A stretch of DNA of 64,000 bases from Planctomycetota bacterium (GTDB lineage: Bacteria; Planctomycetota; Phycisphaerae; Phycisphaerales; SM1A02). Below the pieces are notes generated by a model. The model was given only the letters and a program-made list of their open reading frames with translations, was not told the origin of the DNA and made no database searches. This document shows positions 46,973 through 54,040 of the stretch, in pieces; position 1 is the first letter of the stretch; each line of letters starts with the position of its first letter. The stretch is from contig JAIOPG010000001.1 of assembly GCA_021414025.1 (NCBI GenBank), positions 1-64,000 of the forward strand. Reading direction: 5' to 3'. A program made the translations under genes and the position numbers.

Positions 46973-48049
46973 TTAGCGATTCCCGGGGCGGGGCTTCGCT
47001 TCGAGCGGCGGCCGGGCGATCTGCAAAACCGCGTTGCTGACCGCGTAATCCTCCAGTTTTGCGAGGGGGATCCAGCGCAGCTTCGCTCCCGGGCGGAACT
47101 CGACGTGGTGGACGCGGAATCGAATCCTCCGGTGGGAGGTGAGAAACTCGAACTCCCGGTCGAAACCCCTGATGCGCTTGATGTCGCGGCGCATTTGCAG
47201 CAGCCGCGCCGGGGAGGCGTTACCGGGGGCCTCGACCACCGGCGGCGAGAGCAGTCCGGCCCACAAGCCTGTGGCGGGGCGCGTCTCGACCCCCAGTTTC
47301 GAGCCGCGAATCTCCACGCAGGCATGGTGGACGACCGTCCGCCTGGGCTTGTCCGGGCTGGTCAGCGGCACAAACTCCTGCGAGTTCGCGCGGCGCGAGG
47401 CGCAGAGGCTCTTCAGCGGACACGCTCCGCAGCGCGGGGAACGCGGCGTGCAGATCGTCGCCCCCAACTCCATCAGCGCCTCGTTGAGCACCGCGGGGGA
47501 CTTGGCGGCCCGCACCAATCGTTCAGCGGCGCTCCAGAGCCAGGTCTGGGCCGCGCTGCCTTTGACGGACTCCCGCCGATCGGCAAGCCGCGAGAGCACC
47601 CGCGCCACATTGCCATCGACGATCGGCGCCGCCTGCCCATAGGCGAGGCTGGCGACCGCTCCGGCGGTGTAGCGCCCGACGCCGGGAAGGGAGCGCAGAT
47701 CCTCGAGCAAGCGCGGAACCCGCCCGCCGAACCGCAGCGTCATCTCCTTCGCAGCGGCCTGAAGATTTCGAGCCCGACGGTAGTAGCCCAGTCCCTGCCA
47801 TTGGGAAAGCACCGCCTGCTCGGTGGATCGGGCGAGCCGTTTTGGGGTGGGAAACCGCCGGAGAAACGCCGGATACATCTGGGCCACCCGCCCCGCCTGC
47901 GTCTGCTGGAGCATCACCTCGCTGACCAGAACCCGCCACGGCGTTCGCCGCTTTCGCCACGGAAAATCGCGAAAAACCGCTGGAAACCAAGCCTCCAGCC
48001 GCGGGACGATCGCTCGCTCTTTCGGCACTTGTCGGGCAACCTTTCTCAT
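46973..48049 (-). CDS. mutY: A/G-specific adenine glycosylase
   Basis: Removes adenine opposite 8-oxoguanine; 358 residues. Catalytic Glu in LVSEVMLQQTQAGRV, helix-hairpin-helix LPGVGRYTAGAVASLA with catalytic Asp in APIVDGNVARVLSRL, and the 4Fe-4S ligands CTPRSPRCGACPLKSLC are present. The C-terminal NUDIX-like 8-oxoG recognition domain covers the last 110 residues. Confidence 0.95.
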   Translation of the reverse strand: MRKVARQVPKERAIVPRLEAWFPAVFRDFPWRKRRTPWRVLVSEVMLQQTQAGRVAQMYPAFLRRFPTPKRLARSTEQAVLSQWQGLGYYRRARNLQAAAKEMTLRFGGRVPRLLEDLRSLPGVGRYTAGAVASLAYGQAAPIVDGNVARVLSRLADRRESVKGSAAQTWLWSAAERLVRAAKSPAVLNEALMELGATICTPRSPRCGACPLKSLCASRRANSQEFVPLTSPDKPRRTVVHHACVEIRGSKLGVETRPATGLWAGLLSPPVVEAPGNASPARLLQMRRDIKRIRGFDREFEFLTSHRRIRFRVHHVEFRPGAKLRWIPLAKLEDYAVSNAVLQIARPPLEAKPRPGNR

Positions 48050-48136: not shown

Positions 48137-49447
48137 ATGGCAAAAATTTTCTACACCATCGATGAAGCGTGCGCCAAACTCGGCAAGTCCAACGACCAGG
48201 TCATGGAGCTGATCAAGAACGGCAAGCTCCGCGAGTTCCGCGACCGCGGACAGCTCATGCTCAAAGTCGAGGACGTAAACAGCCTCTCCACCGACGCAGC
48301 CTCCGACAGCGGCCTGGACCTGAAGCTTGACTCCGGCACCGCCAATCTCGGCGGCGGCAGCGACAGCTTCGAGCTGGACCTTTCCGACTCCGCCTCGCCG
48401 GCCCTCGCAGCCGATCCCAAGGGTGACAGCCCCGTCGGTCTTTCGGCCCCCGCGGGCATCAAGGATGACAACGACGATCTGATGCTTGAGCTCGAGCCCG
48501 ATGCGGCGCCGACCGCGAAGTCGCCGGCGGCGAAGACTCCGGCCGCTCCCGCCAAATCAAAGTCGGATTCCGACGACCTCCTTCTGGAGCTCGATCTGGA
48601 CGCCTCCAACGCCAGCGCGGCGCCCGCCGCCTCGGCCTCCGCGTCCGCGGCGAAATCCGCAGCCGCCAAGTCTGCCGCCTTCGACGACGACTCGCTCACG
48701 CTCGAGCTCGATCTTTCCGACTCCGCCCCCGCAGCCCCGGCGGCTCCCGGCAAGACCAAGTCGGGCGGCAAATCGCAGGCCGATTCTGAGGCATTGTTCC
48801 TCGAGGACAGTCTCGCCAGCGGCATCGCCGCCAGCCCCGCCAAGAGCGCCACCGGCGGCCAGACCACCGATTTCGACCAGACCATCGAGGATGCACGCGA
48901 CGGCAGCGCGCTCGGCCTGGACAGCCGGGTCGACAGCGCCATAGGAGCTTCCGGAAGCCTTGAGGCCGACAAGATCAATCTCGATCAACCGGGCTCCGGC
49001 AGCGGACTTTTGGATCTCACGCAGGAGAGCGAGGACAGTCAGATGGGCGCGGCGCTCATGGACGAGGCCTTCCAGGGAGACGACGAAGAGGCGCCCAAGA
49101 ACGCCAGCGGCATTTTCGGCGGAGCTTCGGGCGAGAGCGGCATCAACGACGCGGCCATCGTCAACAGCGGCACCATTGCCGCCGCGGCTCCCGCCTTCGC
49201 GGGCGCGGCCGCAGTCGGCGTCGAGGTCTACAGCGGTTCATGGAGCGGACTGACCGTCGGCCTGCTCGTGCCGGCGATCGTCGGGCTCACCGCCACGGCT
49301 GCGATGCTGGTCGTCAAGGGGCTGGGCGGAACTCCCGAGCTTGCGGTGATGTTCGCCAGCGACTGGATGGTCTGGACGGGCGGCTACGCCGGCGCGATCG
49401 CGATCTGCGGCGGCATCGGCTTCTTCGTCGGCAAGGCTACTGAGTAA
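48137..49447 (+). CDS. HTH-acidic repeat-transmembrane protein
   Basis: 436 residues, no known function. Residues 1-55 form a MerR/excisionase-type helix-turn-helix (FYTIDEACAKLGKSNDQVME, LREFRDRGQLMLKVED). Residues about 60-330 are low-complexity and acidic with recurring blocks of the form D(D/S)L.LELDLD (e.g. DDLLLELDLDASN, DSLTLELDLSDSAP), linked by Ala/Lys/Ser stretches. The C-terminal 90 residues contain two hydrophobic helices, with Gly-rich GGYAGAIAICGGIGFFVG at the end. That suggests a membrane-tethered DNA- or protein-binding module. psd follows after 15 bp. Confidence 0.78.
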   Translation: MAKIFYTIDEACAKLGKSNDQVMELIKNGKLREFRDRGQLMLKVEDVNSLSTDAASDSGLDLKLDSGTANLGGGSDSFELDLSDSASPALAADPKGDSPVGLSAPAGIKDDNDDLMLELEPDAAPTAKSPAAKTPAAPAKSKSDSDDLLLELDLDASNASAAPAASASASAAKSAAAKSAAFDDDSLTLELDLSDSAPAAPAAPGKTKSGGKSQADSEALFLEDSLASGIAASPAKSATGGQTTDFDQTIEDARDGSALGLDSRVDSAIGASGSLEADKINLDQPGSGSGLLDLTQESEDSQMGAALMDEAFQGDDEEAPKNASGIFGGASGESGINDAAIVNSGTIAAAAPAFAGAAAVGVEVYSGSWSGLTVGLLVPAIVGLTATAAMLVVKGLGGTPELAVMFASDWMVWTGGYAGAIAICGGIGFFVGKATE

Positions 49448-49462
49448 GCGGGCCGCAACGAC

Positions 49463-50146
49463 ATGCTGACAAAATATGGAATGAACCAGTGGCTTCCCGC
49501 TGCGGCGATCATTCTGCCCGTGGCTGGCGCCTGCGCCTGGCTCGCCTCCAATGGCGAGCCCGAGTGGTGGATCCCCGCCGGAATCCTGACGGTGCTGTTG
49601 GCGGGGTTCGCCGCCTTTTTCCGCGATCCGCCGCGAACGCCTGAGACCGAAGACCCCGCCCACTTCCTGAGCCCCGCCGATGGAACCATCAGCGCCGTCG
49701 TGCGCGTCGCCCACCACGAGGCGACCGGCGGACCGGCGCTGGTCATCCGGATTTTTCTGAGCGTGCTCGACGTGCACATCAATCGCGCCGCGCAGGATGG
49801 CGTGGTCGTGGGCCTGCGCCATCAGCCCGGACGCTATCTCGACGCCCGCGCCGCCGCGGGCGCACGCGTGAATGAAAATCTGCTGCTCACCCTCCGGCTC
49901 GACGATGGCCGCGTCTACGGAATCCGGCAGATCTCGGGGGCGATCGCCCGGCGCATCATCTGCGGCGCCAAGCCCGGCGATCGCCTTCATCGCGGTCAAA
50001 AATATGGAATGATCCAGTTCGGCTCGACCACCGAACTGATCCTGCCCCAGCCCGAGCGGGCGACCAGCCTGGTGCGCGAAGGCGCATGCGTCCGTGCGGG
50101 GCGCACTGCGATCGCCTCCCTGGCTCCGGCCGCTTCAGCCCCGTAG
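49463..50146 (+). CDS. psd: Phosphatidylserine decarboxylase
   Basis: Pyruvoyl enzyme making phosphatidylethanolamine; 227 residues, the short (PSD-A/PssA-like) type. Two N-terminal membrane segments precede FFRDPPRTPE, SPADGTISAVV, FLSVLDVHINRAA, and the self-cleavage motif FGSTTELILP (cleavage before Ser gives the pyruvoyl group). A partner pssA is not in the window. Likely co-transcribed with the HTH/TM gene. Confidence 0.92.
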   Translation: MLTKYGMNQWLPAAAIILPVAGACAWLASNGEPEWWIPAGILTVLLAGFAAFFRDPPRTPETEDPAHFLSPADGTISAVVRVAHHEATGGPALVIRIFLSVLDVHINRAAQDGVVVGLRHQPGRYLDARAAAGARVNENLLLTLRLDDGRVYGIRQISGAIARRIICGAKPGDRLHRGQKYGMIQFGSTTELILPQPERATSLVREGACVRAGRTAIASLAPAASAP

Positions 50147-50147
50147 T

Positions 50148-51248
50148 TCATCCAAAAAGTTCGGGCTCTTCGTCGGAGGAATCCCCTGGCCACACCGGAA
50201 AGATTCGCCGGTGAATTCTCGCGTCGAAGGCGAGCTGGGTCGCCAGCGCAGAGCAGACGTCGCCCAGCCCTTGCTCGGCCTGCGCGGGACGGCTCCCCGC
50301 CGTGCCCATGATCAGGATGGCCGCAAAGCACTCGCCATTGGCCCGGCAGGGCGCCAGCATGGCCCAACGCCCGGCGAAGACCTGGTACTCGTCGCCGGCG
50401 ACGAACTGCCGGATGTCGTCCACGGCACAAATCGTTTTTTCGCGCAGCACGCGGGGCAAATGCAGGGTCTCGATCTCGCTCAGAAGCCGGGCGGACAGGA
50501 TGGCGTTGGCGCCGCCGTTGCCCGCGCAGGCGGCGAGGCCGGTGCGCAGATCGGGCCCGACGAGCCAGGAGACCACCATGGCGCCGGGAAGGCAGCGCTC
50601 GACGAAGTCGACCGCCACCCGCGACGCGGTCAGCGGCTCGAGCGACTTGGCCAGGACCTCGTTGAGCGCCTCGATTTCAGGCAGCTTGAGCTTGGGAAAC
50701 TGGGTTCGAGGATTGTGCTCCTGCAGGATGCTCAGCAATTTCTCCAGGTCGCCGGTCGGCTGCTCGGCATCCTGCACCTTGGTCGCCAGGGACTTCAGCG
50801 TGTGGATGCGCTCGTTGCGCTCGCGGCTGAGCCGGGAGACGCGGACAGCGGTGCGCATGATGTGGATGAAGTCGGCCGGAGAGACATCGGAGACGACGCG
50901 CTGCAGATTGTCATAGGCCGCAAGCGTGGGCGGCACGTCCTGGGCGGATTCGCAGAGCACCACGATCTTGGTGTAGTGGGAGACGCGCTGCAGCAGGCGC
51001 AGCGCCTTGGAAATCTCGTCGATGGACTGGGAGAGGTCGATGACGACCGCGTCCACCACCTGCTCCACGCATCGGATGGCGGCGCGCTCCATGTCGGTGA
51101 CCATCTCCACCTGGAATCCATAGTCGACCAGCGGCGCGACCAGCGGCGACCAGTTGCCGGGATCCCCCGCGACCAGAAGTCGGCCGTGAGGGTTGCTCTG
51201 CCAGGAATGGGAGGAATCGGCTTCCACTTCCGCGTGAAATCGACGCAA
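50148..51248 (-). CDS. Receiver-like plus GAF-like protein
   Basis: 366 residues. The N-terminal 140 residues resemble a CheY-type receiver (GRLLVAGDPGNWSP, VVDAVVIDLSQS with a possible phospho-Asp, TKIVVLCESAQD), but the motifs are degraded and the conserved Lys is not obvious. A helical linker leads to a GAF-like alpha/beta domain (VDFVERCLPGAMVVSWLVG to the end). No output domain is seen. Start is probably TTG 51248 (a GTG at 51227 is possible). Convergent with psd; stop codons 1 bp apart. Confidence 0.6.
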   Translation of the reverse strand: MRRFHAEVEADSSHSWQSNPHGRLLVAGDPGNWSPLVAPLVDYGFQVEMVTDMERAAIRCVEQVVDAVVIDLSQSIDEISKALRLLQRVSHYTKIVVLCESAQDVPPTLAAYDNLQRVVSDVSPADFIHIMRTAVRVSRLSRERNERIHTLKSLATKVQDAEQPTGDLEKLLSILQEHNPRTQFPKLKLPEIEALNEVLAKSLEPLTASRVAVDFVERCLPGAMVVSWLVGPDLRTGLAACAGNGGANAILSARLLSEIETLHLPRVLREKTICAVDDIRQFVAGDEYQVFAGRWAMLAPCRANGECFAAILIMGTAGSRPAQAEQGLGDVCSALATQLAFDARIHRRIFPVWPGDSSDEEPELFG

Positions 51249-52073: not shown

Positions 52074-52964
52074 CTAGTCAACGAGCGACCCTTCGATGGA
52101 GCTGATCGGCACCGCGTGCAGGAGCAGCTCCTGGGCGCTGGGCACCTCGCTGGAAAGCTGGATGGGAAGAACGGCGCCATGCTCATGATCAGTGTTCAAC
52201 AGCAGAAGCCCGGGGTTGGGAGCCGCCGCGCCCTCCGGCACCATGGCATGCCCCGAGATGAAGACCTTGACGCCCCACGCCTTGGCCAGCGCCGCCACTT
52301 GCTCCGGCTTCTGGTTTCTTCCCCAGGTCATCTGCCAGGCGCTGCCGCGTGTTGCCTCGTAGTCCGGCTCCTGAAGATCGCGCTCGAGAATCCCCATATC
52401 GAAGGATTTCATGTCGTAGGGGCTCGGCAGCGAGTGCGAGCAGAGGATGCCGCCGCGGGTCCGCAGCGCCAGCGGCATGGCCCGGACGAAAACCCGCACT
52501 GCCTCCTCCACGATCTCCGCGTCCTCGCCGAAGGTCCAGCGCAGACCGCCGCGAAAGAGCTCCGTGTTCTCCCCGGCGCCCTTGCTCACCGGCTGGTTGA
52601 AGGCCTGAGCCAGCTCGTGGTTGGCCAGCAGCACATGGACCTGCCCGGGATGCTTCTCGATCAGGCGGGCCACTTTCGCCAGCATCCGCCAACTCATGTC
52701 AACGCCGTAAGTCAGCCGGTCGCCGTGGATCAGCTCATGCAGCACCAGATGGTTCTCCGGCTGCTCAAGTTGTGCGAAGGCGACCACCTTCACGAAGTGG
52801 ACCGGATTGTCGTGCAGGTCGCCGGTGGCCAGCAGCCGCCCCTCGCCCTCCAGATGCACGCAGGAGCCGCGCCGCTTGGGATCGGACTGCATGGTCTGGG
52901 CGGCGGCGCCGAGCAGTCGGGCCACGCCGGCGGCGCCGAGGTGGTCGATGTCGGCGAGTTTCAC
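52074..52964 (-). CDS. Calcineurin-like metallophosphoesterase
   Basis: 296 residues. Metal-site motifs in order: LLATGDLHDN (GDxH), HELIHGDR (GD), VLLANHELAQ (a variant of GNHE), ILCSHSLPS, and VFISGHAMVP. The substrate is unknown; the protein is cytosolic. Its ATG overlaps the stop of the DUF1573 gene by 4 nt, so the two are translationally coupled. Confidence 0.82.
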   Translation of the reverse strand: MKLADIDHLGAAGVARLLGAAAQTMQSDPKRRGSCVHLEGEGRLLATGDLHDNPVHFVKVVAFAQLEQPENHLVLHELIHGDRLTYGVDMSWRMLAKVARLIEKHPGQVHVLLANHELAQAFNQPVSKGAGENTELFRGGLRWTFGEDAEIVEEAVRVFVRAMPLALRTRGGILCSHSLPSPYDMKSFDMGILERDLQEPDYEATRGSAWQMTWGRNQKPEQVAALAKAWGVKVFISGHAMVPEGAAAPNPGLLLLNTDHEHGAVLPIQLSSEVPSAQELLLHAVPISSIEGSLVD

Positions 52965-54040
52965 GGCGACACCGTCGCCGCGACGAAGAAGCGCGCCGTG
53001 CCCGTGTCGGTGGTGATCGTGACCGGCGCGTAGAGGAATCCGCCGGCGGACTTGGTCACGGTGAAGCGGAACTGGACGCGCACCCGGTCACCGTCGCGCT
53101 TGCTTGAGATCACTTCGACCGCCACATCCGGGCTGGGCGACTTCAAACCGCGCACCGCGTCCCAGCCTGCGGGCTGGGGCTTGCCCTTGGCGACCGAGCT
53201 CTCCAACTCCATCTCCAGCTCGACCGGCTTGTTCAGGGCGATCTTGCCGGCGACCACGATCGCTTCCGGAATGAACCAGCGGCGCTCGTCCATCTTGGGA
53301 TCGAAGCGAAGCCCCGTGGATTCATGGCGAATCCGGAAGGGCACGATCGGGCAATCGGCGACATCGGTCTCCACGCACCACCATTGCTGCATCTTGCCGT
53401 CGGGCACCATCGAAAAGTCCCAGCGCAGCCGGTAGCTGGACTGCGGCGCGTCCTTGGCCGGATCGAACCCGGCGAAGACCGGCGTCGCGCCGTCGCAGGA
53501 AAGCACATGGAAGGGCGTCCCGTTCGGGCTGGAAATCTCGACCACCCCCTGCATCTTTCCCTTGAGCGCGTCGATGTAGGTGGGCTGCACCAGCAGCGGC
53601 AGCTGCACGTCCCCCTGCATCTTGGCTATGAGCGGTTGCGGATCGCCCGCGATCGTGACGAAGACCTTGGCGTCCTTCGGGCCGGGGGTGCGCGGCGCGT
53701 CGAGCGAGGCGATCAGGTCGATCTCGCCGCCGGCGGGAATTTCCTTGCCCGCGAGATCAGAAATGGTCGTGCACTTGCAGCTGGGAAAGGCCGACTCGAT
53801 CTTGACCGCGGTGGTGCCCTTGTTCTGAATCTTGAACTCGCCTTTCTGGCGCGAGCCGGGCTTGATGACGCCGAAGTCAATCTGGGATGGCGCGATCGAC
53901 ACCGTCGAGGCCTTGGCGGTCGGCGCGCCGGCGGGTGGAGCCGCTGCGGGAGCGGACTGTCCGAAGGATTCCGCCGAGACCAGCATGCCCAGCACCGCGG
54001 CGAGCCAGGCGAAAGGGACGGTCGATTGCTTCTGCGGCAT
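52961..54040 (-). CDS. Secreted DUF1573-containing protein
   Basis: 359 residues. Signal peptide (FAWLAAVLGMLVSAESFG), a Pro/Ala linker, then the DUF1573 domain: SQIDFGVIKPGSRQKGEFKIQNKGTTAV and the paired Cys in PSCKCTT. DUF1573 domains are Ig-like (ASH-like) and very common in planctomycetes and Bacteroidetes; role unknown. The second half is unrecognised beta-rich sequence. TAAACT ends 6 nt before ATG 54040. Confidence 0.85.
   Translation of the reverse strand: MPQKQSTVPFAWLAAVLGMLVSAESFGQSAPAAAPPAGAPTAKASTVSIAPSQIDFGVIKPGSRQKGEFKIQNKGTTAVKIESAFPSCKCTTISDLAGKEIPAGGEIDLIASLDAPRTPGPKDAKVFVTIAGDPQPLIAKMQGDVQLPLLVQPTYIDALKGKMQGVVEISSPNGTPFHVLSCDGATPVFAGFDPAKDAPQSSYRLRWDFSMVPDGKMQQWWCVETDVADCPIVPFRIRHESTGLRFDPKMDERRWFIPEAIVVAGKIALNKPVELEMELESSVAKGKPQPAGWDAVRGLKSPSPDVAVEVISSKRDGDRVRVQFRFTVTKSAGGFLYAPVTITTDTGTARFFVAATVSP

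Follow-up and report, generated by a model that had tools for sequence, protein, structure and literature searches.

A 436-residue protein encoded in the window (the whole stretch of 64,000 nucleotides analysed here) is read, with a probability of roughly 0.5, as a phylum-wide membrane-tethered protein-interaction adaptor or scaffold of the cell envelope, with a MerR-fold head that does not bind DNA and with clients encoded in an ancestral operon. In this proposal, the cytoplasmic MerR-fold head would have lost its DNA-binding surface and would dock a protein partner, the long disordered acidic tether would hold clients through short linear motifs, and a transmembrane (TM) hairpin, represented by one TM helix in other classes, would anchor this assembly in the inner membrane; clients would be gathered at the envelope by head and motifs. 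The likely ancestral clients would be NP1, a small protein with one TM helix, an OmpA-type lipoprotein and, in many lineages, an ATPase and a platform protein like those of type II secretion systems (T2SS) and type IV pili; in Phycisphaerales the gene would have departed from the ancestral operon and become co-directional with psd (phosphatidylserine decarboxylase) without needing it. Conservation of the head, a linear motif and the hairpin, and not of the linker, was counted for the adaptor reading, as was the absence of a periplasmic domain; the DNA-binding proteins Xis, BldC, CarH and RacA among the best fold matches of the head, and the neutral charge of the window protein's own helix-turn-helix (HTH), were counted against it. 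The family is near-universal in Phycisphaerae, reaches across the phylum and has two conserved partners, one of which (NP1) was unmatched in Pfam and NCBIfam wherever its members were scanned, and it would provide a concrete example of a DNA-binding fold apparently converted to a protein adaptor.

Table 1. Features of the window protein and of its immediate neighbours (positions counted from the first letter of the window).
Feature	Position	Strand	Basis
CDS, HTH-acidic linker-TM hairpin protein P0001	48137..49447	+	ORF, 436 aa
Winged HTH, MerR/excisionase fold, residues 1–57	48137..48307	+	PF12728 match, model pLDDT
Disordered acidic Ala/Ser/Asp-rich linker, residues 53–285, LELD-type blocks	48293..48991	+	low pLDDT, block count
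Class-wide conserved motif GSGSGLLDLTQESEDSQMGAALMDE, residues 286–310	48992..49066	+	invariant columns in alignments A1 and A4
PKNASGIF, second conserved linear motif, residues 320–327	49094..49117	+	conserved in alignments
C-terminal TM hairpin, helices 371–395 and 410–435, short loop, IGKATE-type end	49247..49441	+	alignments, model
psd, phosphatidylserine decarboxylase	49463..50146	+	PF02666, 118.9 bits
MutY-type glycosylase (HhH-GPD and NUDIX_4), divergent upstream neighbour	46973..48049	-	domain matches

The gene (Table 1) and psd are each present in a single copy in the window's 2.8-Mb genome, and the psd ATG (49463) lies 15 bp past the stop of the HTH gene, in agreement with the first-pass annotation of this DNA. 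In a Pfam scan of the window protein, HTH_17 (PF12728) was matched at residues 5–48 with 27.5 bits (cut-off 27), a cut-off that most scanned homologues did not reach; in NCBIfam, TIGR01764 was matched with 26.4 bits, under its cut-off of 28.8. Beyond HTH_17, no Pfam domain exceeded its cut-off in the window protein, and no LysM, TPR or FimV domain was found. The linker (residues 53–285) has a net charge of −27 and contains 5 blocks of the form [LFM][DE]L[DE], whereas 5000 shuffled versions averaged 0.12 blocks and never had as many as 5. The first-pass annotation had described an acidic region of recurring LELDLD blocks, of which the acidity and the excess of blocks over chance stood, whereas literal LELDLD occurs once (residue 150, with the variants LELDLS at 189 and LELEPD at 117), the dominant residues are Ala (20%), Ser (15%) and Asp (14%), and the repeats are a genus-level feature.

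An AlphaFold model of the window protein was built with 55 homologues. It contained a winged HTH (residues 1–57, pLDDT about 88–95 over the first five 10-residue blocks), a disordered region (residues 59–364, pLDDT < 50 nearly throughout) and helices at residues 371–395 and 410–435 (block means about 74–85), the last corresponding to the two C-terminal membrane helices annotated previously. The HTH modelled alone adopted the same fold as within the full-length model. No periplasmic domain was present in the model, the loop between the TM helices being only ~14 residues. Matches to the head in structure comparison included Xis, BldC, CarH, CbpM and RacA (Z about 5.8–7.9), with RacA at rank 1 in Foldseek; as all Z scores were < 8, the range of common background, these matches were given limited weight. 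The MerR/excisionase-like HTH recognised at first sight was nonetheless borne out by the profile match, the confident model and the fold matches together. A full-profile sequence search of solved structures returned a sole match, to 8vd6 ('CAP repeat'), which consisted of five copies of a short stretch and was uninformative. Most class outgroups carry an additional Lys-rich C-terminal tail, which, under the positive-inside rule, suggests a predicted topology with N- and C-terminus both cytoplasmic.

Family searches were confined to Planctomycetota genomes. A family match was found in 58/61 relatives (window's genome counted in), and the named relatives are Phycisphaerales/Planctomycetota MAGs, many of them from lake or marine sources. 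Using a 25-row profile, the family was detected in 204/294 phylum genomes, comprising 53/54 Phycisphaerae as listed and 151/240 others, the latter mainly through the HTH region; this split assumes that the 70 unlisted misses are non-Phycisphaerae, as the listing runs by kinship. The sole Phycisphaerae miss (G304) also has no psd match. Within the order, the middle region can be as short as ~100 residues or run to several hundred, while the HTH, GSGSGLLDLTRESDDTSLGAELLEE, PANASGLFE and a hairpin with an IGKATE/IGKASE end are conserved. The class-wide core consists of the HTH, a SGSGLLDL[T/S]..DDTSLGA-type motif and the hairpin; the SGSGLLDL-type motif was present in 20/20 class/order proteins (L140–L159), in the form EEGSGILDLS in L147 and L148. 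Proteins of other classes were seen by eye to consist of HTH, acidic linker and one TM helix. At four loci (L140, L143, L144 and L145) the class motif occurs together with flanking NP1 and OmpA lipoprotein genes, and this combination of motif and both partners adds to the weak HTH match in tying the classes into a single family.

LELD-type blocks number 5–6 in the window protein, L068 and L071, and 0–2 in the 20 proteins L140–L159. Of the 55 A4 rows, 12 were sampled for this count, and the nine of these that do not belong to the genus-like group of the window also had 0–2. By these counts, the blocks are an elaboration found only in the genus of the window and its close relatives. LELDLD as a conserved docking motif was accordingly rejected, most sampled relatives having so few blocks, and the docking role put forward for the acidic repeats was abandoned, since most of the family is without them. 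Other repeats were observed in linkers among L160–L168, loci of another class which we take to be Pirellulaceae-like: SDSDVxL occurs in 5–7 copies in L160–L164, L167 and L168, and DSGISL-type hexapeptides in 4–6 copies in L160–L164, against ~0 in shuffles in both cases. These runs are candidate docking or phosphorylation motifs. At L165 the profile found no family ORF, yet BLAST clustering places L165 with the family.

Net charge over residues 5–48 averaged −2.2 in family alignment A1 (n = 25) and +4.86 in ordinary HTH_17 domains of the same clade (n = 29), with no overlap between the two; the 29 controls are a subset of a longer list, and the HTH_17 matches L182, L183 and L185 of the window's own genome are not among them. 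The mean was −3.2 in A4 (n = 55 rows, range −9 to +1) and, over equivalent residues, −2.45 in L140–159 (n = 20) and −3.25 in L160–205 (n = 36). The HTH of the window protein is less acidic than the family, with a net charge of 0 over residues 5–48. At positions where controls have, for example, S-Q-Q-T-I or A-R-T-V-S, most family members have S-E-D-E-V, and in place of basic control wings such as V-G-R-H-W-R most have F-R-D-R-D-K-L; the basic recognition helix and wing expected of HTH_17/excisionase DNA binders were not found. An acidic HTH (family mean −2 to −3, compared with +4.86) argues against canonical DNA binding, although acidity does not prevent a domain from making a few DNA contacts. 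A head that binds protein, and that has probably lost DNA binding, is favoured because of this acidic charge and of the precedents of CbpM and RodZ. Passages of PMC4063869 describe CbpM as having a MerR fold in which an acidic patch binds the basic J-domain and DNA-binding residues are absent, and passages of PMC6946637 describe RodZ as an HTH-TM protein whose HTH binds MreB and not DNA.

The head resembles CbpM, a MerR-fold regulator of the co-chaperone CbpA, with Z 7.3 and rmsd 2.7 over 61 aligned residues; CbpM differs in being a small soluble dimer with a coiled coil, and has no linker or TM segment. With RodZ the window protein shares an N-terminal cytoplasmic HTH and a membrane anchor, but RodZ has an XRE-type HTH, a periplasmic domain and, next to the membrane, a linker that is basic, whereas the window protein has a MerR/excisionase fold, an acidic linker and a TM hairpin, and a periplasmic domain was not found in it. 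Excisionase and BldC proteins share with the head both the Pfam family, by profile match, and the winged HTH fold (Xis 4j2n: Z 7.4, rmsd 1.6, 52 aligned; BldC 6ama: Z 7.0, rmsd 3.0, 55 aligned), but those proteins bind DNA and the ordinary HTH_17 domains of the clade are basic, whereas the head is acidic and is fused to a linker and an anchor.

The charge of the head bears on two readings in which it would bind DNA. A membrane-tethered transcription factor, with an HTH that would act on promoters while still membrane-bound, in the manner of CadC/ToxR, or once freed by proteolysis, and a linker serving as activation or degradation region, is unlikely: the HTH_17 match exceeds its cut-off, the fold matches include DNA-bound BldC, SoxR and Xis, and some operons include a histidine kinase, but the recognition helix and wing are acidic where those of the controls are basic (−2 to −3, compared with +4.9), no periplasmic sensor domain of CadC/ToxR type was found (the hairpin loop is ~14 residues), and the Phycisphaerales gene stands single, its only recurrent co-directional neighbour being a metabolic gene that some genomes lack. 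The membrane-tethered DNA-binding sensor considered at the outset is likewise disfavoured by the acidic HTH and the missing periplasmic domain. Still less probable is a chromosome-envelope tether, in which the head would bind DNA weakly or non-specifically, or bind a nucleoid protein, and the condensed nucleoid would be held to the membrane. RacA, which binds DNA and anchors via DivIVA, is a fold match (Z 6.3, rmsd 2.5, 58 aligned; Foldseek rank 1) and has in common with the window protein a MerR-like head and the idea of envelope tethering, and the length of the flexible tether and the near-universal presence in the class also suit such a function; unlike in RacA, however, the head here is acidic and the anchor is an integral membrane one, the negative charge of head and tether would repel DNA, and a Z below 8 is common background.

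The position of the gene next to psd suggested a further reading, in which the protein would serve lipid homeostasis by acting on Psd or together with it; this is the most improbable of the alternatives weighed. In its favour, psd is the next gene downstream, in the same orientation, at 77 of 78 named loci with room (80 named loci in all; the exception is L105), with a median gap of 18 bp and a gap of ≤130 bp at 76 loci, and is a better conserved neighbour than mutY, which was found upstream at only 40 of the 74 named loci that extend far enough on that side. When protein and psd coordinates were compared in 52 class genomes, the protein was present in 41/42 Phycisphaerales and psd in 27, the two being adjacent in 23 of these 27. 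Against this, 16/51 class genomes with the protein gave no PF02666 match, the two genes are adjacent in none of the class outgroups (protein 10/10, psd 8/10), and at other-class loci no psd match was found in the family neighbourhoods examined. In the order-family f2, the protein was found in 14/14 genomes and psd (PF02666) in 1/14; psd was apparently lost across this Phycisphaerales family (13/14 without PF02666, e.g. G042, G046, G054, G276 and G308).

Psd is not functionally required by the HTH protein. The counts mark the adjacency as an arrangement at the level of the order, where it has persisted long enough to make co-transcription plausible. Of the layout described in the first-pass annotation, HTH, TM order and psd link are retained by homologues in Phycisphaerales, whereas the repeats are not kept and the psd link is lost elsewhere; outside the order, homologues do occur scattered without psd. 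The part in membrane lipid homeostasis that had been proposed from the linkage was rejected as a general function on the distribution of psd. Tight synteny across an order, as with psd, may mislead on function.

Evidence for clients of the adaptor comes from the gene order outside Phycisphaerales. In class outgroups, the next gene encodes an OmpA-domain lipoprotein-like protein with a coiled-coil-like stretch (10/10 loci), and NP1 is encoded upstream in 4/10 of these loci and in most other-class loci. Outside the order, 62 genomes have both genes among the matches listed, a subset of the 204 and 186 genomes with a match to the HTH family and to NP1, respectively. In 59/62, NP1 is the next gene upstream, in the same orientation; in the remaining 3/62 the two genes are on separate contigs. 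NP1 profile matches were obtained in 186/294 phylum genomes, and Y, R and D are invariant in the NP1 alignment (A2). Scans of NP1 gave no NCBIfam match (L169, L171 and L178) and no Pfam match (L140, L169, L170, L171 and L178). In Phycisphaerales the profile gave only weak matches (15 genomes, best E about 4e-7), and none in the window's own genome.

Other-class gene order was examined at 39 loci, of which 19 were chosen from profile matches (one without a family ORF by profile) and 20 at approximately one per family, mostly with NP1 already known; some loci stop at contig edges. NP1 was upstream at 10/19 and 19/20 of these loci, the OmpA lipoprotein downstream at 5/19 and 13/20, and T2SSF upstream at 4/19 and 11/20, the NP1 counts including L176 and L204, where stop-to-stop frames overlap. 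NP1 was observed at L140, L143–L145, L169–L171, L173–L179 and L186–L204. A histidine kinase lies between T2SSF and the NP1-side genes in all but one of the 15 T2SSF loci, and the fullest operon reads T2SSE-T2SSF-histidine kinase-NP1-HTH gene-OmpA lipoprotein. The T2SSE and T2SSF proteins could be part either of a T2SS or of pili. NP1 and the lipoprotein are putative partners, a reading that is drawn from operon membership, which is not interaction.

The OmpA lipoprotein gave a strong match in 12/12 Phycisphaerales genomes tested, away from the HTH gene (G000:C7:27795-28523 in the window's own genome). Around the moved gene in eight Phycisphaerales genomes, T2SSE and T2SSF together were found within ~3.4 kb in G054 only, and a T2SSE-type ORF was found near it in G024 (L235); no other neighbour was repeated. 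In G054 (L240:8844-16451), T2SSF/T2SSE lie ~3.4 kb from the OmpA lipoprotein on the opposite strand, perhaps as a remnant of the ancestral cluster. Apart from psd, the HTH gene has no recurring neighbour in Phycisphaerales, f2 or the Pirellulaceae-like loci L160–L168, and the putative link to secretion or pilus machines is therefore not universal. According to passages of PMC10632474, Planctomycetota have an unusual cell biology and many phylum-restricted genes of unknown function, and in P. limnophila a type II secretion operon is followed by six Planctomycetes-restricted genes of unknown function. The role of the family is directly testable in Planctopirus limnophila, for which a transposon-essentiality dataset has been published.

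A more speculative form of the adaptor reading, held only tentatively, is that of a Planctomycetota-wide envelope organiser standing in for HubP/FimV, in which the MerR-fold head on its fast-evolving motif tether, anchored in the inner membrane, would form with NP1 and the OmpA lipoprotein a module reaching from the inner to the outer membrane, by which a T2SS/type-IV-pilus-like machine would be positioned or regulated. The tether motifs would be the LELDL, SDSDVxL and DSGISL repeats, differing by lineage. If true, Planctomycetota, whose cell biology is divergent, would have in it a substitute for a HubP/FimV-class landmark. HubP, FimV and TspA are described in passages of PMC12918733 as membrane-anchored proteins with a long disordered acidic cytoplasmic region, the repeats of which differ between genera both in number and in sequence, and FimV as functioning in the type IV pilus. 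The window protein likewise combines a membrane anchor with a long cytoplasmic region that is acidic and disordered, and the operon link of the family to T2SS/T4P-type genes in other classes recalls the pilus role of FimV. Unlike in HubP/FimV, neither a periplasmic LysM-like domain nor a C-terminal FimV/TPR domain was found in the window protein, which ends in the TM hairpin, and the order is reversed, with an N-terminal MerR-fold head and C-terminal TM helices. As the LysM and FimV/TPR features, both defining, are missing, the family was not filed under HubP/FimV; the adaptor proposed here would function in the manner of HubP/FimV or RodZ while belonging to neither. The first-pass annotation knew of no system with this layout, and none was found in open-licence full-text literature, mostly judged from search listings; the layout seems undescribed, and the general kind (membrane-tethered acidic scaffold, non-DNA-binding HTH) is already known.

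Further along the window, between psd and a tsaB-like gene, a 366-residue protein (50148-51248, minus strand) gave no Pfam match at 0.01, and its N-terminal part resembles, by eye, a degenerate response-regulator receiver. A DUF1573 protein with a HYDIN/VesB-like Ig domain is encoded at 52961-54040 on the minus strand.
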